Assembly (NCBI GenBank): GCA_947304155.1
Contig: CAMZAD010000002.1
Coordinates: forward strand, 1 to 64,000
Origin: an uncultured Candidatus Saccharibacteria bacterium
Lineage (GTDB): Bacteria > Patescibacteriota > Saccharimonadia > Saccharimonadales > Saccharimonadaceae
Direction: 5' to 3'
Length of the DNA stretch: 64,000 bases
How positions within the stretch are numbered: the first letter of the stretch is position 1; every line of letters starts with the position of its first letter. Under the pieces are notes generated by a model. It worked only from the letters and a program-made list of their open reading frames with translations, was not told where the DNA came from and did no database searches. Both the position numbers and the translations under genes were made by a program. Of the stretch, positions 3,845 through 55,661 are shown piece after piece.

Positions 3845-4914
3845 TAGAGTGTGCTATATATTTTCTTGTTTTTGTCATAGTCTTTGGCCTCAACAATGTT
3901 GCTATTAAACAAAAAAGTATTTTCAGAAAAAGGGTTTTGATAACGACAGGATTTTTGATCCTACTGAGCTTTGTTGGCTTGCGTTTTAATGTTGGAACGG
4001 ATTATCAAAACTACATAAGAGAATATAATACCATATCTCAAATTTCTTGGGAGGAGTTACCTACCCTTCGTATGGAGTTGCTAGTTGCAACATTGTTCAA
4101 AATACTTTCTTATGTTTTATGGGATGCTAGACTTATCTTTGTTGTACTAGGATTTCTTGCGCTATACCCAATATATAAAGCAAATAAACTTTATGAATAT
4201 AAGTATTTAGCGTATTCGGTGCTAATTTATTGCGTACTATTCCTTCCGTTCAGTCTAAATGGCATGAGACAGGGGGTAGCGATGAGTTTTATCTTGCTTT
4301 CTATGACATATTTAATGAAAGAGAAGAAGATACTTGGTATTGTTTGTCTAATTCTAGCGTGTCTATTCCATACGTCTGCGCTAATTGTTGCGCCGTATTT
4401 GCTGTTACTTCTAATTAAAAAATTCAAGAAAATAAAACTGTCAAAGATATATATTGCATTGACTGCAGTTATTTCATTTGCAGTATTATTCTTCCTTAAC
4501 GACTGGCTAATGAATAATGGGATTGATAAATATAGCTACATGCTAGGTAGTATTGAAACTGATAATATTGCGCTCAGTGGCAATGTTATACTTCATCTTG
4601 CTATTATTCCAATCATGTTATTGTCTGAGAAAAACGAAACAAACGATATTTATAAAAGCATGATTTTGTCAGGTATTATCTTTATGATAGTTGGTACTGC
4701 TGCGCAATACCTTTCGCGCTTTAGTCTGTACTATCTAATGCCATGTATTATATTGATTCCACGTTCAATACAATATATTAAAAAAGATAATCTTAGACTT
4801 CTCGTTAAGGGATTGTTGTTTGCTTATTTGATCATGTTCTTTTACTTGCAATATAGTAAATGGGGAGCACACGAAATTTTGCCATACCAAACATGGATTT
4901 TTGGAGATATGTAA
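3841..4914 (+). CDS. EpsG-family glycan polymerase, polytopic membrane protein
   Basis: The 357-residue protein has about ten hydrophobic segments spread over its length and the EpsG signature near the first loop (GLRFNVGTDYQNY, about 47-59). EpsG-like proteins are the Wzy counterparts of exopolysaccharide loci: they join lipid-linked repeat units outside the membrane. The second loop carries NGMRQGVAMS, another conserved patch of the family. The ATG overlaps the upstream stop by 4 nt. The coding is strongly AT-rich, more so than the housekeeping genes further right, as is common for horizontally exchanged capsule loci. Confidence 0.82.
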   Translation: MIECAIYFLVFVIVFGLNNVAIKQKSIFRKRVLITTGFLILLSFVGLRFNVGTDYQNYIREYNTISQISWEELPTLRMELLVATLFKILSYVLWDARLIFVVLGFLALYPIYKANKLYEYKYLAYSVLIYCVLFLPFSLNGMRQGVAMSFILLSMTYLMKEKKILGIVCLILACLFHTSALIVAPYLLLLLIKKFKKIKLSKIYIALTAVISFAVLFFLNDWLMNNGIDKYSYMLGSIETDNIALSGNVILHLAIIPIMLLSEKNETNDIYKSMILSGIIFMIVGTAAQYLSRFSLYYLMPCIILIPRSIQYIKKDNLRLLVKGLLFAYLIMFFYLQYSKWGAHEILPYQTWIFGDM

Positions 4915-43709: not shown

Positions 43710-45464
43710 ATGTTGACTAAGAAAAACAAAAAGGCTTTTAACTATTTTAACGTCCTCGCGATTTTTTCTGCCTTTTTCTTATTCGGTTTCCTCGCAATCC
43801 CTACTTGTTCGCCAATTATTGGGACAAATGCAATTAGTCCTGATTCGCCTGTCTATGACACTGACGTCAATCCAGACCATAAAATTAGTTTCAATATTAA
43901 GACCCTTCCACTCCTTGCTATGAGTGTTGATACTAATGACCTTAATATCACGGGAAGCTTTGGTAGCTTTGTTAATGGCGATATTAATATTACAGTTGAT
44001 ACAAACAATGCATGGGGCTATACTCTTCAGGTTGAAGATAAGGATAGTAACACGGCACTGACTTCAAACGAGTCAGAGCTACAATTTACTTCCAACTTTG
44101 AAGGTACAAAAACCGCTGAACAGATGGCTGATAATACCTGGGGATATTCTCTAGCTGATACAGAATATGAGTTGTTCAATAGTATTCCAGCACTAAATAA
44201 TCCTGTCACTATTCGTACAACCGACTCAAACTCCTTTGATTCAACTTCAGTTACTACATTTAAGGTTGGTATTAATGTTGGAAATGACATCGATCCAGGC
44301 GTATATGCCGATGTAATTATGTTCACAACATTTGTTAATCCTGCCGATATCTGTATCGGCGAGGGCTTCTATTGTATTACAACAATGCAAGAGATGACTA
44401 ATGCAATCTGTAAGGAGACTACAACGCCAACTGTGTCGGCTACTGAATTTACATATATATATTCGGAAGATACGAGTAAAGTTCCACGTACTATCTTGAG
44501 AGATACTCGTGACGACAAGACTTATGTCGTATCAAAGCTTGCTGACGGAAACTGTTGGATGAGCCAAAATCTAGACCTTGAGCTAAGTACAGAAACCGCG
44601 CTGAATGATGGAAACACAGACCTTAATTCAAAAGAATCCTGGACTCCAACTAATAGCACGGACACTGAGCTAGTTAAATGGGCGGATAGCTATTATGACC
44701 TCGCATATAAAGATTACTACTATTATGATGGATTTACTGTTCCACGTATTCCAGAAAGAAGCTATAAGCCTGGAGCGGAAAAAGCATATCTTCAAAATGG
44801 TAAGACTGTAGCTAGTACTCCTTCATCGAGTGACCCATATCAAGCTTGGGAAAAAGTAGGCACATATTATAACTACTTTGCCGCAACCGCCGGTAGTGGT
44901 CCAGATACTATATATACAATGGTAAAAAATGAAGAAAGAAGCGGTCGCGCAAGAGATTCAATTTGTCCAAAAGGCTGGAGACTTCCTGATGGATGGACGA
45001 TGACGCCGGGCACTTATGCAATACCAACATATGATACGTATGATCTATTGAATATCTATAATGCTAATGATAATGTTATAACTGCCGCTAATAGTCCGAT
45101 TAATATGGTTTATGCTGGATATGTAAATAGCCATTATGAAGATACCAGATATGAAGAACAGTCGGTAGAAAGAAATCCAATTTCGCTAGATGGAATAGGT
45201 GTGGCAGGTCTATATGGTGAAAACTCGATAATTAACGGTAATACTCCATCTGTGAGCTTTGCCTACGTTAGAGATGGTATGACCAATTATACTGGTGGTA
45301 ACTATAGTCGCTGGGATTTCTACGGCGGAGATAGGATTATTGTAAATACATACTATTCAGGCAGTTACGACGATCTTTATTATAACATCTTTGGCTCATA
45401 CGATGATAGCTTTTATGGCCCAACAGCCTTCCACGGTTTCTCAGTTCGCTGTATGGCTCGCTAA
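43710..45464 (+). CDS. FISUMP-domain surface protein (module type d-A), 584 aa
   Basis: The largest and most diverged copy. Signal segment about 14-38. The N module is of its own type (MSVDTNDLNITGSFG, ITVDTNNAWGYTLQVEDKD), yet it keeps the VDTN..GY core. The FISUMP domain is of the long A type (LADGNCWMSQNLDLELS, YYNYFAATAGSG, DSICPKGWRLPD, VRCMAR), with a Tyr-rich insertion (DLAYKDYYYYDG). It has its own promoter and AGGAAG ribosome-binding site. The DNA around its stop (GCTCGCTAACGCGT) is the same as at the end of the 28430 gene. Confidence 0.83.
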   Translation: MLTKKNKKAFNYFNVLAIFSAFFLFGFLAIPTCSPIIGTNAISPDSPVYDTDVNPDHKISFNIKTLPLLAMSVDTNDLNITGSFGSFVNGDINITVDTNNAWGYTLQVEDKDSNTALTSNESELQFTSNFEGTKTAEQMADNTWGYSLADTEYELFNSIPALNNPVTIRTTDSNSFDSTSVTTFKVGINVGNDIDPGVYADVIMFTTFVNPADICIGEGFYCITTMQEMTNAICKETTTPTVSATEFTYIYSEDTSKVPRTILRDTRDDKTYVVSKLADGNCWMSQNLDLELSTETALNDGNTDLNSKESWTPTNSTDTELVKWADSYYDLAYKDYYYYDGFTVPRIPERSYKPGAEKAYLQNGKTVASTPSSSDPYQAWEKVGTYYNYFAATAGSGPDTIYTMVKNEERSGRARDSICPKGWRLPDGWTMTPGTYAIPTYDTYDLLNIYNANDNVITAANSPINMVYAGYVNSHYEDTRYEEQSVERNPISLDGIGVAGLYGENSIINGNTPSVSFAYVRDGMTNYTGGNYSRWDFYGGDRIIVNTYYSGSYDDLYYNIFGSYDDSFYGPTAFHGFSVRCMAR

Positions 45465-46442: not shown

Positions 46443-46982
46443 TTAAATCCATTTAGCGAGGCGCTCGTATTCAGGGGTGCCTTTTTCGTATGAATCCAAA
46501 ATGTCTTCCTGGTAAGTTTTGCCGTTTGTGATATTTAAAGTTTCAACATCTGGGCAGGCAGCGAGCAAACGAATAATTGCCTCATCGGTATCAATGTTTG
46601 TCATTGATTTTTTATCTTTACCATAAGAGTGAACACGGAGCTCACGATAAACGAAGCGCTTGATTCCAGCTTGGAGGCAGTATTTAAGACAGTTTTCGCA
46701 AGTCGCCAAGTTGTTATAAACTGTGCATCCAGTCAAATCACGTCCAGCGAAAAGCAATGCGTTCATCTCTGAATGGATTGAAAAATAGTATTTCATTGGG
46801 CGCTCAGAAAGAGTCATTTTTGATTCGTCTGCACCTTGGATTGTGCCGTTGTAGCCAAAAGATACTGGCCTTCTTCTATTATCAACAATGACACAGCCGT
46901 TCTGTGAAGAAGGGTCTTTTGACTTTTTTGCGACCTCAGCCGCGATATTCATGAAGTATTCGTCCCAGGATAATTTACTCAT
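46443..46982 (-). CDS. dCMP deaminase-like zinc enzyme
   Basis: The 179-residue protein has the cytidine/deoxycytidylate deaminase motifs: IHSEMNALLFAG (usually HAE; here His-Ser-Glu, near 73) and the zinc cysteines in LATCENCLKYC (near 97-100). A second metal-like set at the N-terminus (SSQNGCVIV) fits the dCMP branch. It would make dUMP for thymidylate synthesis, or salvage deoxycytidine nucleotides. It ends 3 bp from the convergent hydrolase gene. Confidence 0.85.
   Translation of the reverse strand: MSKLSWDEYFMNIAAEVAKKSKDPSSQNGCVIVDNRRRPVSFGYNGTIQGADESKMTLSERPMKYYFSIHSEMNALLFAGRDLTGCTVYNNLATCENCLKYCLQAGIKRFVYRELRVHSYGKDKKSMTNIDTDEAIIRLLAACPDVETLNITNGKTYQEDILDSYEKGTPEYERLAKWI
46459..46486 (+). 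terminator. Possible terminator nested in the convergent gene
   Basis: AGGCGC / GTGCCT (one G:T pair), 12-nt loop and T5, inside the 3' codons of the deaminase gene. It could end the glutaredoxin-hydrolase transcript. Confidence 0.45.
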
Positions 46983-47142: not shown

Positions 47143-48795
47143 ATGAAATTTCTCGCATTTTTTGTTACGTTTTTATTAGTGCTCGCGGCCGTCTTTAGTA
47201 GTGAAGTAAAGTCGGCAGACTTCTACTGCTCGGATTACGGTTTTATCTTTGCGCGCGGCTCCGGCCAACATCTTAATGATTCGGATTTTACAAATTTTGA
47301 GAATGCAATTTTAAATGAAATCAAGGATTTTGATTATGAATTCTATGAGCTTGGCACAAAAGAAGGTGGATATGATGCGGTCTCGGTTGCGAATTTTAGC
47401 ACCGCTCTTGGCGCATATATCAGCGCCGGCGAGTCGTATCGTTTTGGTGAGAGCGTCGAACGCGGCAAGACCGAGTTAATAGAATATATCAGGGAAGATT
47501 CAAGGCGCTGCAAGAATAAGAAATACGTCCTTGTTGGATATTCACAGGGTGCACTCGTTTTGGATAAGGCAATCCCGAGTCTAGATGCAAAGAAGATTTT
47601 ATATGTCGCGACTTTTGGTGATCCGAGGCTTTATCTTCCAGAGGGGCGAACTGCTACTAAGACTGCTTGCAAACGCAGAGGTCTATCTCCGTATCGTGTC
47701 TACGTCCCAGATTGCCATGTTATAGAGGGTGTACTTTCGGCGATTGACCCGTATCAGCCGAACGGATACTATCATAAACTTGGCACTTGGTGTAATAGGA
47801 AAGATTTTATGTGTGGTTCTGGTCTGGATTTATCTAATCCGCTTGGCGGGCACACCTCGTATTCTTCCGATGACGGCTACGCGAAATTAGCCAAGATTGT
47901 GCTCGAAAAGATACAAGAAGACCAGGGAAAAACTAAAAAGGAAGAGTACGAGACTATCTATTCTGATACGCCGCCAAAAGACGTGGTCTTTCTTTATGAT
48001 TTGAAAGAGCTATTCTCTGAGAAGCGTCGCCTGACTAAAAAGTCTATCCCGGACGGGATTAAAGAGCGGCTACTTGAACTAGTGAGGAATAATGCTAGGG
48101 TTGCGGTTTATAACGTCAACGGCTACATTGATGGAGTGCTCCTAGAAGAGAAAATCCCGTTTACGATGGAAGATTTGGACTTAAAAATTGACCAGTTTAA
48201 TGAGACAAACCGCAGCTTCATAGGTAGTGTCTACGCCAACCCCGATAACAATATTTATTATGCAATTAAGGAAATCTCAAATAATACTGCGTGGCGAAAT
48301 GGCGCAGAGCGTCAGATTTACGTCTATACTAATCACATTTCAGATAGGGATGCGAGCAGAGATTGGACGAATTATCAGGACGCGATAAGTGCGGCACTAA
48401 AAAACAATGTTAAAGTGTCGTTTATTAGTGACGACGGAACAGATCAAAACCTTATGTATCAGGAAATAATGGATGTTACTGGCGGAACTCACGTCGGCGA
48501 CAATTATGAATTGATTAGATCGGAGAAGAAAAACGAGAACAATTTAAAGCCAGAAATTATGAATCAAACCTTCCTAATTAATAAGAATTCCGACCAGACT
48601 CTAGTGGTAGTAAATGACGTTGTTTATGGAGTAACTAATCAGAAAAAACTCACGATTCTAAATCTAGACCAATCTAAAGAGAATAAAATAATCCTGGTTC
48701 CATATGACAACCAGGGAAATAAGAGACTAAACGAAGAATATACCCTGATACCAAAAATAACAGGGGCGCCGGACTGTGGATTAGGCGGTCTTTGA
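47143..48795 (+). CDS. Secreted cutinase-family esterase with C-terminal extension
   Basis: The 550-residue protein has a signal peptide (1-24, ending VKSA). Residues 26-250 match cutinases: FARGSGQ near 36, nucleophile in VLVGYSQGALV (Ser134), catalytic Asp between two cysteines in WCNRKDFMC (Asp221; C217, C224) and His237 in GGHTSYSSDDGY. Residues 265-470 are a Rossmann-like alpha/beta domain resembling a von Willebrand A fold without a clear metal site, and the last 60 residues are beta-rich. Cutinases attack ester lipids and, in mycobacteria, act on cell-envelope lipids; here a host-envelope target is an inference. CGGAGA lies before the ATG. Confidence 0.85.
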   Translation: MKFLAFFVTFLLVLAAVFSSEVKSADFYCSDYGFIFARGSGQHLNDSDFTNFENAILNEIKDFDYEFYELGTKEGGYDAVSVANFSTALGAYISAGESYRFGESVERGKTELIEYIREDSRRCKNKKYVLVGYSQGALVLDKAIPSLDAKKILYVATFGDPRLYLPEGRTATKTACKRRGLSPYRVYVPDCHVIEGVLSAIDPYQPNGYYHKLGTWCNRKDFMCGSGLDLSNPLGGHTSYSSDDGYAKLAKIVLEKIQEDQGKTKKEEYETIYSDTPPKDVVFLYDLKELFSEKRRLTKKSIPDGIKERLLELVRNNARVAVYNVNGYIDGVLLEEKIPFTMEDLDLKIDQFNETNRSFIGSVYANPDNNIYYAIKEISNNTAWRNGAERQIYVYTNHISDRDASRDWTNYQDAISAALKNNVKVSFISDDGTDQNLMYQEIMDVTGGTHVGDNYELIRSEKKNENNLKPEIMNQTFLINKNSDQTLVVVNDVVYGVTNQKKLTILNLDQSKENKIILVPYDNQGNKRLNEEYTLIPKITGAPDCGLGGL

Positions 48796-48981
48796 TGATA
48801 AATGCCAGTGGTCGCCGTATTCACACTTATAGACGGTTAGCTCTGGAGCGCCGTGGTCGTATTGTGCAACCTTAGCTGCTACCTCAGCCTCTTCGCGGGT
48901 GTCGTAGCAAATCTTCTGCGTCTCTCCGACCCAGCAAAGTTTTGGCGTAAACTGTGTATTATAGTGATTATACTTGACCAT
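48781..48981 (-). CDS. Hypothetical small protein, 66 aa
   Basis: Unrecognised small protein starting MVKYNHYNTQFTPKLCWVG, with a second Cys in QKICYDTREEAE and an end CEYGDHWHLS that could bind a metal through Cys and two His. ATG 48981 is preferred to an upstream in-frame start that would read across the divergent TetR promoter. It overlaps the end of the cutinase gene by 15 bp on the opposite strand. Confidence 0.6.
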   Translation of the reverse strand: MVKYNHYNTQFTPKLCWVGETQKICYDTREEAEVAAKVAQYDHGAPELTVYKCEYGDHWHLSSKTA

Positions 48982-48993
48982 TTTGATATTTTG

Positions 48994-49002
48994 TGATATA
49001 AT
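48994..49002 (+). promoter_or_regulatory. Extended -10 promoter of the TetR gene
   Basis: TGATATAAT with a leader of about 25 nt. Confidence 0.5.
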
Positions 49003-49034
49003 ATTAACAATAACAATTAATTTTTTGTGGGAAA

Positions 49035-49610
49035 ATGAGGAAAGCACAAGATAACGCTGCCTATCGCAAAACCGAGCTTAGAATCATTAAAGCTTTAACT
49101 CATAGTTTTTCAAAAAATGATCCCGTCTTTACGAAAGTTAGGAAAGTCCTAACCGAAAATAACATTTCACCGGCTGCATTCTATGTGCACTATGAAAGTT
49201 TACCAGATTTAATTACCAAAAGTCAACAGAGGCTCCTAAGAGGAATAAATATCGAAGTTAGAAAAGCTTCAAATGATAAAACAATTACACTAGAACGTTT
49301 CTACCGAAACGTTCTTTTATTTTTCTTCAAGAACAAAGAGTATGTGGCTCTCGTGGTTGAATCTAGGAATACTAGGATAGAGACAGAGGCTATGAGATAT
49401 ATGCGACCGTATCTCACGAGCTATTGGAATAATTATAGTCCAGAGACTAACGACTATATCTACCAGCAGCTCACGCTTAACTTTATCGCCGAGGTCGGAT
49501 TCTGGCATAACGAAAGATATGATTTTGACGCCATAAATCGCCACGCAAAGAACCTCGCATCTCTTACAGTGATGGCGCCAAGAATCTATAGTCAGATGCT
49601 CATAAAATAA
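49035..49610 (+). CDS. TetR/AcrR-family transcriptional regulator
   Basis: The 191-residue protein has an N-terminal helix-turn-helix region ending in the typical ISPAAFYVHYESLPDLI (about 52-68; compare the common GTFYRHFxSKxxL), followed by an all-helical ligand domain without recognisable signature. The HTH start is unusual in that the first helix is degenerate. The ligand and targets are unknown; it is divergent from the 66-residue gene and precedes nrdD on the same strand. Confidence 0.8.
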   Translation: MRKAQDNAAYRKTELRIIKALTHSFSKNDPVFTKVRKVLTENNISPAAFYVHYESLPDLITKSQQRLLRGINIEVRKASNDKTITLERFYRNVLLFFFKNKEYVALVVESRNTRIETEAMRYMRPYLTSYWNNYSPETNDYIYQQLTLNFIAEVGFWHNERYDFDAINRHAKNLASLTVMAPRIYSQMLIK

Positions 49611-49879: not shown

Positions 49880-52237
49880 ATGTTCAAAAAAATTCAGAAG
49901 CGAGACGGAAAAATCGTAAACTTCAACCCAGAAAAAATCGTTGATGCGATCGCTGCCGCCGGTGCTGCAACCGAGGAATTCAAGTATGATCGCGCAAAGC
50001 AACTTGCCGATAAGGTAGTAAAGAAAGCAGAGGAGACGATTACAAAACGTACTCCATCTGTTGAGCAAATCCAAGATATCGTAGAACAGGTCTTGATGGA
50101 TTCTTCATTCAAGCGCACTGCAAAAGCCTATATCACTTATCGCCTTGAGCGTAACCGCACCCGCGAAGCAAAATCAAACCTCATGGAAGGTTACAAGAAA
50201 ATTGCTCTCGCTGATGCTTCAGAAGATTCAGATATTAAGCGTTCAAACGCAAACGTTGATGGCAACTCAGCAATGGGCAAGATGCTCCAATTCGGCGCTG
50301 AAGGTTCAAAGGAATTCGCAAAAACCGTTCTTATGGATCCACGTTTTGCTGCTGCTCATGACAATGGCGACATTCATATCCACGACCTTGATTTCTATGC
50401 CACTGGAACTTTGACTTGCTGCCAAACCGACCCACTCAAACTCTTTGCTGACGGCGGCTTCAATACTGGCCATGGCCATCTCCGCACTCCTAACTCAATC
50501 GGTTCATACGCTGCACTTGCTGCAATCATCCTTCAAGCAAACCAGAATGAGCAACACGGTGGCCAATCAATTCCAAACTTCGACTATGCAATGGCTCCAG
50601 GCGTTGACAAAACTTTCCGTAAATCCTTGAAACGCAATCTTGAAAAATACAACGAATTCGCAGAGAAAAACCTTAAAATTGATATTCCAGACGACATCGT
50701 GTTTGGTGACGACGAGAGACTCAAGAAAATGAAAGTCCCAGCTTCAGTTATCAAGATGTCAACTGAAGATACCGAAAAACAAACTTTCCAAGCTATGGAA
50801 GGCTTCATCCACAACCTTAACACAATGCACTCACGCGCTGGCGCACAGGTTCCATTTACTTCAATTAACTTCGGTACCGACACTAGCGCTTCTGGTCGCC
50901 TCGTCAGCAAGTACTTGCTTGAAGCAACCATGAACGGCCTCGGTAAAGGTGAAACCCCAATCTTCCCAATCAGCATTTTCAAGGTCAAGGAAGGTGTCAA
51001 CTATAACCCAGAAGACCCAAACTACGACCTCTTCAAACGCAGTATGGAAGTCTCCGCAAAGCGCCTCTTCCCGAACTTCTGTTTCATCGATGCTCCATTC
51101 AATCTTCAATACTACAAGAAGGGTGACTACCGCACTGAAATCGCAACCATGGGCTGCCGCACTCGCGTCTTCGGCTCAATCTTCCCAGAATCAGATGGCA
51201 TCGTTACTGGCCGCGGTAACTGTTCATTCACCACAATCAACCTTGTCCGCCTCGGTATCAAACACGGCATCTGTCTCAAAGAGCGCAAAGAAGCAGACTG
51301 GTCTGGCTTCTACAAGAACCTTGATGAAATGATGGACCTTGTAAAAGACCAACTCCTCGAACGCTACGAATTCCAAGCTAACCAACACGTTCGTAACTTC
51401 CCATTCCTCATGGGTCAAGGCAACTGGTTCGGTTCAGAAAAACTTGGTTGGAATGACAAGCTCCGCGATGTCATTAAACACGGTACTCTTTCAATCGGCT
51501 TCATTGGCCTTGCTGAATGTCTCGTCGCTATGACCGGCAAGCACCACGGTGAATCTGAAGAATGCCAAGAGCTCGGTCTCGATATCATCACCCACATGCG
51601 CGAACGCTGCGACGAGTATTCAAAGAAGTATAAACTCAACTTCTCACTCCTCGCAACCCCAGCTGAAGGTCTCTCTGGTCGCTTTACCAAGATAGATCGC
51701 AAAGAATACGGCAAAATCAAAGGCGTCACCGACAGAGACTTCTACACTAACTCATTCCACGTCCCAGTTTACTATCCAATCTCAGCCTTTGGAAAAATTG
51801 ACAAGGAAGCTCCATATCACGCTCTCTGTAATGCTGGACACATTAGCTACATTGAGCTTGATGGTGACCCATCAGACAACATTGAAGCCTTTGAAGCAGT
51901 TATCCGTCACATGCACGACACTGGTATTGGTTACGGCTCAGTCAACCACCCAGTAGACCGCGACCCAGTCTGTGGCTTCGCTGGTATCATCAAAGGGAAC
52001 CGCTGCCCAAGCTGTGGCCGCATTGAAGACGACGTCCTCTTTGAAAGACTTCGCCGCATCACCGGCTACCTTGTAGGCTCACTTGAACGCTGGAACGATG
52101 GCAAGAAAGCTGAGGAAGCAGCTCGCGTCAAACACGATGTCTGCCTCTGCGACAAGAACGGTGTTTACACTAAGGCTCAAAAAGCCGCTCGTGAAAAAGC
52201 CAAGAAAACTGCTGAAAAAGCGCTCGGCACAGAGTAA
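49880..52237 (+). CDS. nrdD: Anaerobic (class III) ribonucleoside-triphosphate reductase
   Basis: The 785-residue glycyl-radical enzyme makes deoxyribonucleotides without oxygen. It has an N-terminal ATP cone for allosteric control (IQKRDGKIVNFNPEKIVDAI, 4-23), the NRDD catalytic barrel, the C-terminal zinc site (PVCGFAGIIKGNRCPSCGR) and the glycyl-radical motif RRITGYLVGS near 735. The 40 residues after the radical site are charged and helical, longer than usual. AGGAGG lies before the ATG. It is followed by its activase nrdG and preceded by NrdR boxes. Confidence 0.96.
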   Translation: MFKKIQKRDGKIVNFNPEKIVDAIAAAGAATEEFKYDRAKQLADKVVKKAEETITKRTPSVEQIQDIVEQVLMDSSFKRTAKAYITYRLERNRTREAKSNLMEGYKKIALADASEDSDIKRSNANVDGNSAMGKMLQFGAEGSKEFAKTVLMDPRFAAAHDNGDIHIHDLDFYATGTLTCCQTDPLKLFADGGFNTGHGHLRTPNSIGSYAALAAIILQANQNEQHGGQSIPNFDYAMAPGVDKTFRKSLKRNLEKYNEFAEKNLKIDIPDDIVFGDDERLKKMKVPASVIKMSTEDTEKQTFQAMEGFIHNLNTMHSRAGAQVPFTSINFGTDTSASGRLVSKYLLEATMNGLGKGETPIFPISIFKVKEGVNYNPEDPNYDLFKRSMEVSAKRLFPNFCFIDAPFNLQYYKKGDYRTEIATMGCRTRVFGSIFPESDGIVTGRGNCSFTTINLVRLGIKHGICLKERKEADWSGFYKNLDEMMDLVKDQLLERYEFQANQHVRNFPFLMGQGNWFGSEKLGWNDKLRDVIKHGTLSIGFIGLAECLVAMTGKHHGESEECQELGLDIITHMRERCDEYSKKYKLNFSLLATPAEGLSGRFTKIDRKEYGKIKGVTDRDFYTNSFHVPVYYPISAFGKIDKEAPYHALCNAGHISYIELDGDPSDNIEAFEAVIRHMHDTGIGYGSVNHPVDRDPVCGFAGIIKGNRCPSCGRIEDDVLFERLRRITGYLVGSLERWNDGKKAEEAARVKHDVCLCDKNGVYTKAQKAAREKAKKTAEKALGTE

Positions 52238-52916: not shown

Positions 52917-54374
52917 ATGAAAAAACAAAAAATCAGAAAAGTTGCAGCCGCTTCGGCAATTTTTGGTTCTTTTTTGCTTCTTGGTTTTGTCTCTGCTTTA
53001 TTCTTCGCACCGATCATTAAAACTAACGCAGATAGCAATGCTAACACTAAGATAAAAGCAACCGTTAGTCCAGTAATTTCACTTGCTCTCGATTCTAATA
53101 CTATGGAGTTCAACATTACCCCAACTGCCACTGGCTCCTTCAATTCACAATCCGTCGTAGCTACGGTAAATACTAATAGTACTGGTGGCTATGAGCTTTT
53201 CTTCTCAGCTGAAGATAACACTACAACTATGACCAGTCTCACTTCCGAATCCACTATCGCTTCCGATTTCTCTGGAACTGTCACTTCTTCAACTATGGCA
53301 GCCAACAAATGGGGCTATTCCTTGGATAACACGAACTTCTCAATCATCCCAACTCTCGCAACCCCTACTAAAATCAAAGACCTTGATCATTTTCCGTCAA
53401 GCGCAGAAAAGACTACAACGGTTAATATTGCAGTAAAAGCTGATACTAGCCTCCCGTCCGGTACTTATACTAAAAATGTTGTCTTCTCAGTAATCGCTCA
53501 CCCAACTCCAGAAACCATTCATACTATTGCCACTATGCAAGATATGACTCCTGACGTCTGTAATGAAACCACTACGCCAGCTACCAACGCCACTGCATTT
53601 GACTGGGATGGCTCTTATCACAACGATACTTCACGAGTTCCAAGAAATAGCTTACAAGATACCCGCGACGGAAAGTTCTATCTCGTCTCAAAACTCGCAG
53701 ACGGCAACTGTTGGATGAGCCAGAATCTTGAATTGATGCTTGACTCAACTAAATCTCTTTCAAACCTCACTACCGACCTTAATACCAAAACCAGTTGGAC
53801 TCCAGAAAACTCAACCCTAACAGTAGTCCCAACTTCGAGTACTTGGCCGGCTAATAACGAAACTGCTTCCTCTGCCGCCTATTCATATTATCCAATCACA
53901 ACAGACCGATACTATCAAGGTGGCACATCAAAATCTAGCACCCCAACAAACTCAGGGGTTGAGTATGACTGGGAAAAAGCTGGCATCTACTACAACTGGT
54001 ACTCTGCTACAGCTGGAAGTGGCACCTATGCTATGACAAGTGGAAATGCAGAAGATTCAATCTGCCCTAAAGGCTGGATGCTTCCGCTTGGTACAACAGA
54101 AAACAAGAGTTTTCACTATCTCATTACTACAAAATATGGTCTAGACAATGGAACTGCTTTTAAGCTTGTTGATGCTCCATTTAATATTCTCCGTGCCGGC
54201 ATCTATGTCTGGACTGGTACTATGCTCGATCAGGGCTCGACCGGATATCTTTCGTCTTCGTCTGCCTACTCACAGGATAATATCTACGACCTGTCCTTCG
54301 TCTCTTTAGGCCTCGACCCGCGCTACAGTGGATCTAAGGGTGAAGGTTTCTCCGTGCGTTGCGTAGCCCGTTAA
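52917..54374 (+). CDS. FISUMP-domain surface protein (module type a-A), 485 aa
   Basis: First gene of the third FISUMP operon. Signal segment about 8-35 ending IIKTNADS. The N module (type a) is nearly identical to that of 39819; the C-terminal FISUMP domain is of the long A type, closest to 26964 and 55667 (DWDGSYHNDTSRVPR, LADGNCWMSQNLELML, YYNWYSATAGSG, DSICPKGWMLPLG, VRCVAR). AAAGGG lies before the ATG. Position and partner gene match the first operon, so both derive from a two-gene block, but the N module has since been exchanged. Confidence 0.85.
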   Translation: MKKQKIRKVAAASAIFGSFLLLGFVSALFFAPIIKTNADSNANTKIKATVSPVISLALDSNTMEFNITPTATGSFNSQSVVATVNTNSTGGYELFFSAEDNTTTMTSLTSESTIASDFSGTVTSSTMAANKWGYSLDNTNFSIIPTLATPTKIKDLDHFPSSAEKTTTVNIAVKADTSLPSGTYTKNVVFSVIAHPTPETIHTIATMQDMTPDVCNETTTPATNATAFDWDGSYHNDTSRVPRNSLQDTRDGKFYLVSKLADGNCWMSQNLELMLDSTKSLSNLTTDLNTKTSWTPENSTLTVVPTSSTWPANNETASSAAYSYYPITTDRYYQGGTSKSSTPTNSGVEYDWEKAGIYYNWYSATAGSGTYAMTSGNAEDSICPKGWMLPLGTTENKSFHYLITTKYGLDNGTAFKLVDAPFNILRAGIYVWTGTMLDQGSTGYLSSSSAYSQDNIYDLSFVSLGLDPRYSGSKGEGFSVRCVAR

Positions 54375-54386
54375 TTAGGATAAGAA

Positions 54387-55661
54387 ATGAAGAGTTTAAA
54401 TAAGAAACAAAATAAAATCTCAAAACTCGCCATATTCTCTGGCTCGCTTCTTGTTGCTGCTTCGGCAATCCTCCTTTTTGCTCCAGTCATAAAATCCAAT
54501 GCTGCCGAAAAAACGCTCAATGTTACAGCTATCATTGATCCAGTAATCTCACTCTCACTAGATAAAAGTGCTCTAGATTTCAATATCATTCCAACCTCTA
54601 CTGGCGTTTTTGATTCCGGCTCAATCATTGCAACTGTAGATACAAACAGCACTGGTGGTTATGAACTCTACTTCTCTTCAGAAGATAGCTCCACTGCTAT
54701 GACTAGCCTCGTCTCTGAATCCACTATCGCCTCAGATTTCAGTTCAACCGTAACTAGTTCAACCATGGCTGCAAACAAATGGGGTTACTCACTAGATGCC
54801 ACTAACTTCAGCACAGTCCCTACCCTTGCAAATCAAGCAAAAATTAAAGATATCAGTCTTACTCCAACCGCAGCCGAAAAAGTTACAACAATAACTATCG
54901 GCACCAAAATAGATAGCTCCCTTCCATCAGGTGCTTACTCTAAAAAAGTTGTAATCACTGCCGTTGCCCATCCATCTAGAACCCCAACCTTAAGTGACCT
55001 TACAACCATGCAACAAATGACACACGCTATTTGTAGTGCATCTGCTGTGCATGAAACTAACACTCTAACGGATCCACGAGATGGTAGCACCTACACCGTA
55101 GCTAAACTTGCAGGCGGTGATTGTTGGATGACTCAGAACCTCCGAATTGCCGGAGTTACCCTTCATCCTTCGGATTCTGATGTAGCGGTGGACTTTGAGC
55201 TCCCAGCCAGTGTTGCTAGCACTTCCGCCTTCCAAACCACAGATGAAAGCATTGCTCTTTACATTGACGAGACCAATCCAACCACTTATGGTGGGTATTA
55301 TACTTTCCCAGCTGCAGCCGTTGGCTCTGTGGCCCCGGTCATTAACTATGGTGAGACGTCGTACTCCATTTGTCCAAAAGGTTGGAAATTACCAAGTATG
55401 TCTAATGTTAATACGCTTAACGAGCAGTATTATAATGCAGCTACATATGGGCTAGATAAATATGAACCAAATCATGTCCTTGGTGGAACACTCGCGAGTA
55501 ATGGAGTAGGTTTTAGCCTTAAGAATATGTATGCATATTACTGGACATCATATGTAAATTCAAAGTATCCAAGTTTCTATGGTTTGCAGAATAATTCATA
55601 TGTCAGTGGTGTTGGTAGTAAAGGTCAAAACGGCTATAGTGTTCGTTGTGTCGCAAGGTAG
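54387..55661 (+). CDS. FISUMP-domain surface protein (module type b-B), 424 aa
   Basis: Full-length counterpart of 28430. The same intergenic sequence TTAATTAGGATAAGAA precedes both genes. N module type b (SLSLDKSALDFNI, VDTNSTGGYELYFSSEDS); short B-type FISUMP domain (GGDCWMTQNLRIAG, PSDSDVAVDFELP, YSICPKGWKLPS, VRCVAR). The two proteins agree closely to about residue 290 and then diverge in the presumed variable face (TYGLDKYEPNHVLGG is still shared). Confidence 0.85.
   Translation: MKSLNKKQNKISKLAIFSGSLLVAASAILLFAPVIKSNAAEKTLNVTAIIDPVISLSLDKSALDFNIIPTSTGVFDSGSIIATVDTNSTGGYELYFSSEDSSTAMTSLVSESTIASDFSSTVTSSTMAANKWGYSLDATNFSTVPTLANQAKIKDISLTPTAAEKVTTITIGTKIDSSLPSGAYSKKVVITAVAHPSRTPTLSDLTTMQQMTHAICSASAVHETNTLTDPRDGSTYTVAKLAGGDCWMTQNLRIAGVTLHPSDSDVAVDFELPASVASTSAFQTTDESIALYIDETNPTTYGGYYTFPAAAVGSVAPVINYGETSYSICPKGWKLPSMSNVNTLNEQYYNAATYGLDKYEPNHVLGGTLASNGVGFSLKNMYAYYWTSYVNSKYPSFYGLQNNSYVSGVGSKGQNGYSVRCVAR

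Follow-up and report, generated by a model that had tools for sequence, protein, structure and literature searches.

What does a secreted cutinase do in a Saccharibacterium, and how did its gene get there? The question arises from the window, that is, the whole 64,000-nucleotide stretch of DNA from an uncultured Saccharibacterium analysed here, in which an open reading frame of 550 codons runs uninterrupted from 47143 to 48795 on the forward strand. A preliminary description saw in its product a cutinase-like esterase, perhaps acquired from a host among the mycolic-acid-bearing Actinobacteria and acting on the envelope esters of that host.

Active site and domain architecture

The gene is present as a single copy in its 770-kb genome, and reading of the sequence revealed a GGAG directly 5' of its ATG. 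The idea of a pseudogene was dropped because the frame is of full length and the catalytic triad intact. The following features were assigned:

47143..48795, forward strand: exported cutinase-vWA protein, 550 amino acids (open reading frame, Pfam, structure)
47143..47217, forward strand: putative signal peptide, residues 1-25, MKFLAFFVTFLLVLAAVFSSEVKSA (sequence reading, model)
47227..47928, forward strand: cutinase domain, residues 29-262 (PF01083; VIA-align Z 17-21 over residues 27-263)
47260..47262, forward strand: Ser40 of RGSG, oxyanion-hole position (109-row alignment)
47542..47544, forward strand: Ser134, nucleophile in GYSQG (kept in 109 of 109 relatives)
47626..47784, forward strand: subfamily insertion, residues 162-214, LYLPEG...PYQP (alignments)
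47803..47805, forward strand: Asp221 of the triad, within C217-x3-D-x2-C224 (kept in 109 of 109 relatives)
47851..47853, forward strand: His237 of the triad (kept across alignments)
47965..48537, forward strand: vWA/I-domain fold, residues about 275-465, metal site (MIDAS) lost (structure matches)
48550..48753, forward strand: small beta domain, residues about 470-537 (model, alignments)
48766..48780, forward strand: diverged C-terminal tag APDCG, residues 542-546 (alignment, comparison of C-termini)

In agreement with the preliminary description, the first 25 residues resemble a signal peptide of type I, which would export the protein; this call combines sequence reading with a modelled helix at residues 2-18. 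The domain that follows matched the Pfam cutinase family over residues 29-250 (E 6.9e-15, 55.8 bits versus a cut-off of 25.9), and its model has a minimal alpha/beta-hydrolase fold with pLDDT mostly above 90. Comparison with known structures gave Z scores of about 17-21 over about 180 residues for the cutinase/acetyl-xylan esterase fold, the top matches being yeast cutinase-like enzymes, acetyl-xylan esterases, fungal cutinases and Rv3802c, with the leading ones tied. The triad proposed earlier (Ser134/Asp221/His237) proved complete, with Asp221 between C217 and C224, and all three residues are invariant in an alignment of 40 sequences. His237 is found in 108 of the 109 relatives, the lone exception being a one-residue alignment shift, and the cysteines flanking Asp221 are kept in 108 and 109 of them. 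The Ser40 column holds serine in 98 of 109 rows, threonine in three, alanine in three and a gap in five. With Ser134, His237, Asp221 and a preformed oxyanion hole, the protein would cleave carboxylic esters by the standard two-step mechanism of alpha/beta-hydrolases. From the export-type sequence, the conserved residues and the fold we infer ester hydrolysis outside the cell.

The domain resembles CE5/PF01083 enzymes (fungal cutinases, acetyl-xylan esterase II) in its fold, GYSQG motif, C-x3-D-x2-C acid and histidine, as well as in the RGS oxyanion motif and an N-terminal cysteine pair. It differs from them in sequence (about 20-25% identity), in the fused vWA and beta domains and in an insertion of about 50 residues between nucleophile and acid, which bears an invariant extra cysteine pair (C176 and C191). 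As far as the alignments go, this insertion and its cysteine pair mark the subfamily.

The long C-terminal extension, which the preliminary description had set apart from ordinary cutinases, is real; it comprises a vWA fold and, after it, a small beta domain, and is typical of this subfamily. Pfam detected nothing convincing in the extension of the window protein. Modelled alone (mean pLDDT 73), it matched integrin I domains, VWF A1 and TFIIH p34 with Z scores of 12-13 over about 160 residues, and a Rossmann-type vWA fold is present. In relatives, Pfam found a clear vWA domain at this position, often followed by PKD, and the small beta domain aligns with their LVILND.LG... stretch. The MIDAS residues (DxSxS...T...D) are absent from the window copy, which has DLK and N instead; in the 109-row alignment they are present in most relatives and missing in several. 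Some members from the sister genus g11 have lost the vWA domain altogether and retained the triad. Since the triad is kept while the vWA site or domain is repeatedly lost, the catalytic domain is the constant part of the protein and the adhesion-type domain the variable one.

A conserved locus and its relatives in Actinobacteria

Within the family, 52 of 199 genomes (about a quarter) gave a match to the cutinase gene. It is present in 15 of the 16 other sampled genomes of the window's genus and nearly absent from the rest of the phylum outside the family. The named relatives belong to Saccharibacteria from the ruminant small intestine (genus-mates among them), termite guts and groundwater. Three neighbours of the gene are conserved:

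46443..46982, reverse strand: dCMP/cytidine deaminase (PF00383; synteny)
48781..49047, reverse strand: convergent gene for an 88-amino-acid protein with a Cys/His pattern (synteny)
49880..52237, forward strand: NrdD, anaerobic ribonucleotide reductase (PF13597; synteny)

The gene order of the ruminant clade (dCMP deaminase, cutinase, 88-amino-acid gene, NrdD) is that of the window, with some loci showing fewer than all three neighbours, and the 88-amino-acid gene adjoins the cutinase in 50 of the 113 loci that have a cutinase match. Because of this conserved locus and the presence throughout the genus, we conclude that the window gene is an old single-copy orthologue, inherited vertically within the genus. 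A recent, isolated acquisition by this lineage is ruled out by the same two observations, and the proposed acquisition from a host did not hold as a recent event. Absence from host-associated relatives, which the preliminary description would have counted against itself, was not found: the gene is widespread in Saccharibacteria of ruminant and termite guts.

Between the 88-amino-acid gene and NrdD lies a gene (49035-49610) for a 191-amino-acid protein without Pfam match that by eye looks like a TetR-type regulator; it is apparently missing in most syntenic relatives, where the gap is short. A FISUMP-like secreted protein is encoded near the cutinase (43710-45464), and similar proteins at 52917-54374 and 54387-55661 perhaps form with it a small paralogous family of surface proteins. 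Four database records titled Chloroflexi or Nomurabacteria (L094, L100, L107 and L109) match genomes of the window's family in sequence and are probably naming errors in the public record.

Outside the phylum, the closest related proteins come from Actinobacteria and have the architecture cutinase-vWA-PKD, often with an LPxTG anchor. Our scan found carriers in Virgisporangium, Arthrobacter, Pseudoclavibacter, Microbacterium, Actinomycetaceae, Bifidobacteriaceae, Nocardioides and Ilumatobacter; to our knowledge, none of these taxa makes mycolic acids. The source named in the preliminary description, mycolate-bearing Actinobacteria, was thus not borne out, since the relatives form a rare cutinase-vWA-PKD subfamily of mycolate-free ones. 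How rare it is in Actinomycetota was seen in a sample of 396 genomes, where only the centre genome held a close member and 26 others gave more distant cutinase-family matches. An Arthrobacter plasmid from marmot gut encodes a signal peptide, cutinase, vWA, PKD and Fn3-like domains and an LPxTG-type anchor; its annotated CDS begins too far downstream to include the cutinase. The plasmid protein N2K99_RS18365 of Arthrobacter sp. zg-Y1110, whose frame is open further upstream, has the same subfamily and domain order, with 28% identity to the window protein and 46% to that of a groundwater Saccharibacterium (L005); it retains the vWA metal site, PKD, Fn3-like domain and LPxTG-type anchor, whereas the window copy has neither anchor nor metal site. 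Rhodococcus plasmid proteins (L075) also fuse vWA and cutinase, but in reversed order (vWA first) and with a distant cutinase, apparently as an independent fusion. The RefSeq CDS 'PKD domain-containing protein' in L074:3803-6310 starts late, at base 4880; the frame is open upstream of the annotated start, and signal peptide and cutinase domain are encoded there. The Virgisporangium member L079 ends in RTX-type calcium-binding repeats in place of the LPxTG anchor.

In trees rooted on distant actinobacterial cutinases, the subfamily forms one family with both phyla intermixed. With cutinase and vWA combined (450 columns), the groundwater members L078 and L090 group with Virgisporangium (support 98/98), and a single Saccharibacterial clade was rejected at p 0.029 for a group chosen once a first tree had been seen; for the cutinase domain alone, the AU test did not reject such a clade (p 0.145). 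Since both phyla are mixed, the trees clearly indicate gene transfer between Saccharibacteria and Actinobacteria, likely in two or more events. The outgroup suggests Actinobacteria to Saccharibacteria as the main direction, with inner nodes weakly supported. The connection between the two phyla drawn in the preliminary description is therefore real in that the cutinase family does cross between them; the comparison that it called for placed ordinary actinobacterial cutinases outside, as outgroup.

A scan of genome contigs for close relatives with the window protein alone as query gave no match because this copy is divergent; with an alignment as query, the scan succeeded and reported 189 loci. 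Scanned viral contigs held no relatives, so there was no sign of phage carriage, and the sole match among phages was lysin B of Mycobacterium phage Reindeer (E 5e-3). In a full-text search with little coverage of subscription literature, titles and abstracts pointed to no relevant paper joining cutinases with Saccharibacteria, Patescibacteria or CPR, and to cutinase-vWA proteins through incidental co-mentions only. The cutinase-vWA subfamily that Saccharibacteria and mycolate-free Actinobacteria have in common through transfer has drawn little notice.

Proposed function of the cutinase

None of 40 genomes of the genus yielded a ketoacyl synthase, which was found in 14 of 14 controls. Fatty acids must therefore come from outside, and a secreted lipolytic esterase fits this need. 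Some genus-mates export a second secreted lipase, of class 3 (PF01764), for which the window genome gave no match. We consider the cutinase-vWA protein most likely to be a secreted lipolytic esterase that feeds a cell without fatty-acid synthesis. Its likeliest substrates would be acyl esters in extracellular lipids, such as membrane or lipoglycan lipids of a host bacterium or dietary and gut glycerolipids, from which it may release the fatty acids that the lineage, judged by its missing ketoacyl synthase, is unable to make. In its ancestral form, the enzyme was probably fixed to the cell surface by sortase and carried a vWA adhesion domain together with PKD/Fn3-like spacers; it would have passed between mycolate-free Actinobacteria and Saccharibacteria. 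Vertical inheritance in the window's genus would have gone along with loss of the membrane anchor and retention of a PNTG-like C-terminal tag; in the window copy the vWA metal site would have decayed as well, so that the conserved function resides in the catalytic domain. In this entire proposal, from the secreted cutinase-fold esterase and lipid scavenging to the transferred ancestral surface enzyme, we place about even confidence. As a counterpoint, cutinase folds include acetyl-xylan esterases, which tie with cutinases in the comparisons of our model.

Actinobacteria are the hosts of cultured Saccharibacteria, and the enzyme may act on host-envelope esters. An outright attack would have the esterase harm or reshape the envelope (membrane lipids, lipoglycans or acylated wall polymers) of an actinobacterial host that lacks mycolate, with the vWA domain keeping the parasite attached. 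It would agree with the purely actinobacterial close relatives found outside Saccharibacteria and with the vWA/PKD adhesion-type modules and sortase anchors of relatives. However, the gene is missing in about three quarters of the family's genomes, the window copy is without the vWA metal site and the vWA-less g11 members without the domain, and Actinobacteria carry the gene themselves, which fits a nutritional role too. We regard such an attack as conceivable but unlikely.

Lipid scavenging has also to be weighed against an esterase for plant polymers, that is, for the cutin, suberin or acetylated hemicellulose in the diets of herbivores such as ruminants and termites. Most members indeed come from herbivore guts and acetyl-xylan esterase is among the best structural matches, but members occur in groundwater Saccharibacteria and in soil or food Actinobacteria too, and Pfam found no carbohydrate-binding module in the scanned proteins; we consider this reading improbable.

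That the protein serves chiefly in adhesion and uses its hydrolase fold to bind is suggested by the vWA, PKD and anchor modules of relatives and is very hard to maintain when their triad is effectively always intact while the adhesion modules decay.

Hydrolysis of host mycolate esters by an enzyme from mycolic-acid-bearing Actinobacteria is the least likely of the rival functions and is not supported. Its fold is common to Rv3802c (Z 19.8) and phage lysin B (Z 17.6), and Mycosynbacter, a cultured Saccharibacterium, sets a precedent with mycolate-bearing hosts (PMC12592800). But neither the mycobacterial Culp/Rv3802c proteins nor lysin B have the vWA domain of the window protein, which reached 18.6 bits against a cut-off of 570 with the NCBIfam Culp6 equivalog model; ordinary actinobacterial cutinases are outgroups in the trees, close relatives were found solely in mycolate-free taxa, and phage matches are limited to the one lysin B. 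Given this kinship with mycolate-free Actinobacteria, lipid scavenging is probable rather than an attack on mycolic acids. A conserved exported enzyme can thereby be named for uncultured, fatty-acid-auxotrophic Saccharibacteria and tied to gene flow with non-mycolate Actinobacteria, and lipid acquisition by epibionts becomes testable through one protein.

The C-terminal tag and in-frame UGA codons

Two further oddities of the same gene are open to testing, an anchorless tag and the UGA codons of g11. The window protein ends in GAPDCGLGGL, with no helix, and lacks the combination of LPxTG-like motif, membrane helix and basic tail. Its APDCG is the counterpart of the APNTG(K/R)2 of genus-mates, P543 and G546 being nearly invariant. 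A sortase-type signal with motif, helix and basic tail occurs in several actinobacterial and some termite members (e.g. L115 and P0002). The motif P-x-[TSAC]-G, at most 12 residues from the C-terminus and with no helix after it, is shared by 62 of the 70 non-redundant gut-clade proteins; the commonest ending is PNTG, typically as PKAPNTG(K/R)2.

Scanning 60 genomes of the genus for the PKxPNTG pattern returned mostly cutinases, five class-3 lipases with short tails and three helix-bearing proteins. That two unrelated secreted esterases have this ending in common speaks for a tag that is in use. The anchorless PKxPNTG(K/R)2 may be a working address tag by which a sortase captures both soluble esterases on the cell's own or the host's surface, a tentative idea to which we give a rather small chance. 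If true, gut Saccharibacteria would release cutinase and class-3 lipase for sortase capture as soluble substrates. The window genome encodes four sortases. No other plausible product of this genome ends in the tag, the two longer-tailed proteins carrying helices, and we rejected the tag as a general signal there.

Secreted class-3 lipases with the anchorless PKxPNTG ending were seen in the same genus (L262-L265, L268, L272, L277, L281 and L295). In a third exported family (L296, L297 and L298), a membrane helix and a basic tail come after PKxPNTG, as in an ordinary sortase-type signal; the function of this family is unassigned.

In six g11 genomes (L065, L058, L057, L062, L060 and L064), the cutinase gene contains in-frame TGA at columns that are TGG (Trp) in relatives. 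E[TGA]RQF recurs in five of them, and single cases fall on four other Trp columns. The base after the in-frame TGA is A in 11 of 11 cases, versus 22 of 62 for TGG, and these genes terminate naturally at TAA or TAG. A general UGA-as-Trp code in g11 was judged unlikely because the synthetases are free of internal stops and an RF2 with the SPF motif is present (seen in G152). With two release factors in each of these genomes and stop-free synthetases, gene-specific readthrough of UGA as Trp in the g11 cutinases is possible.
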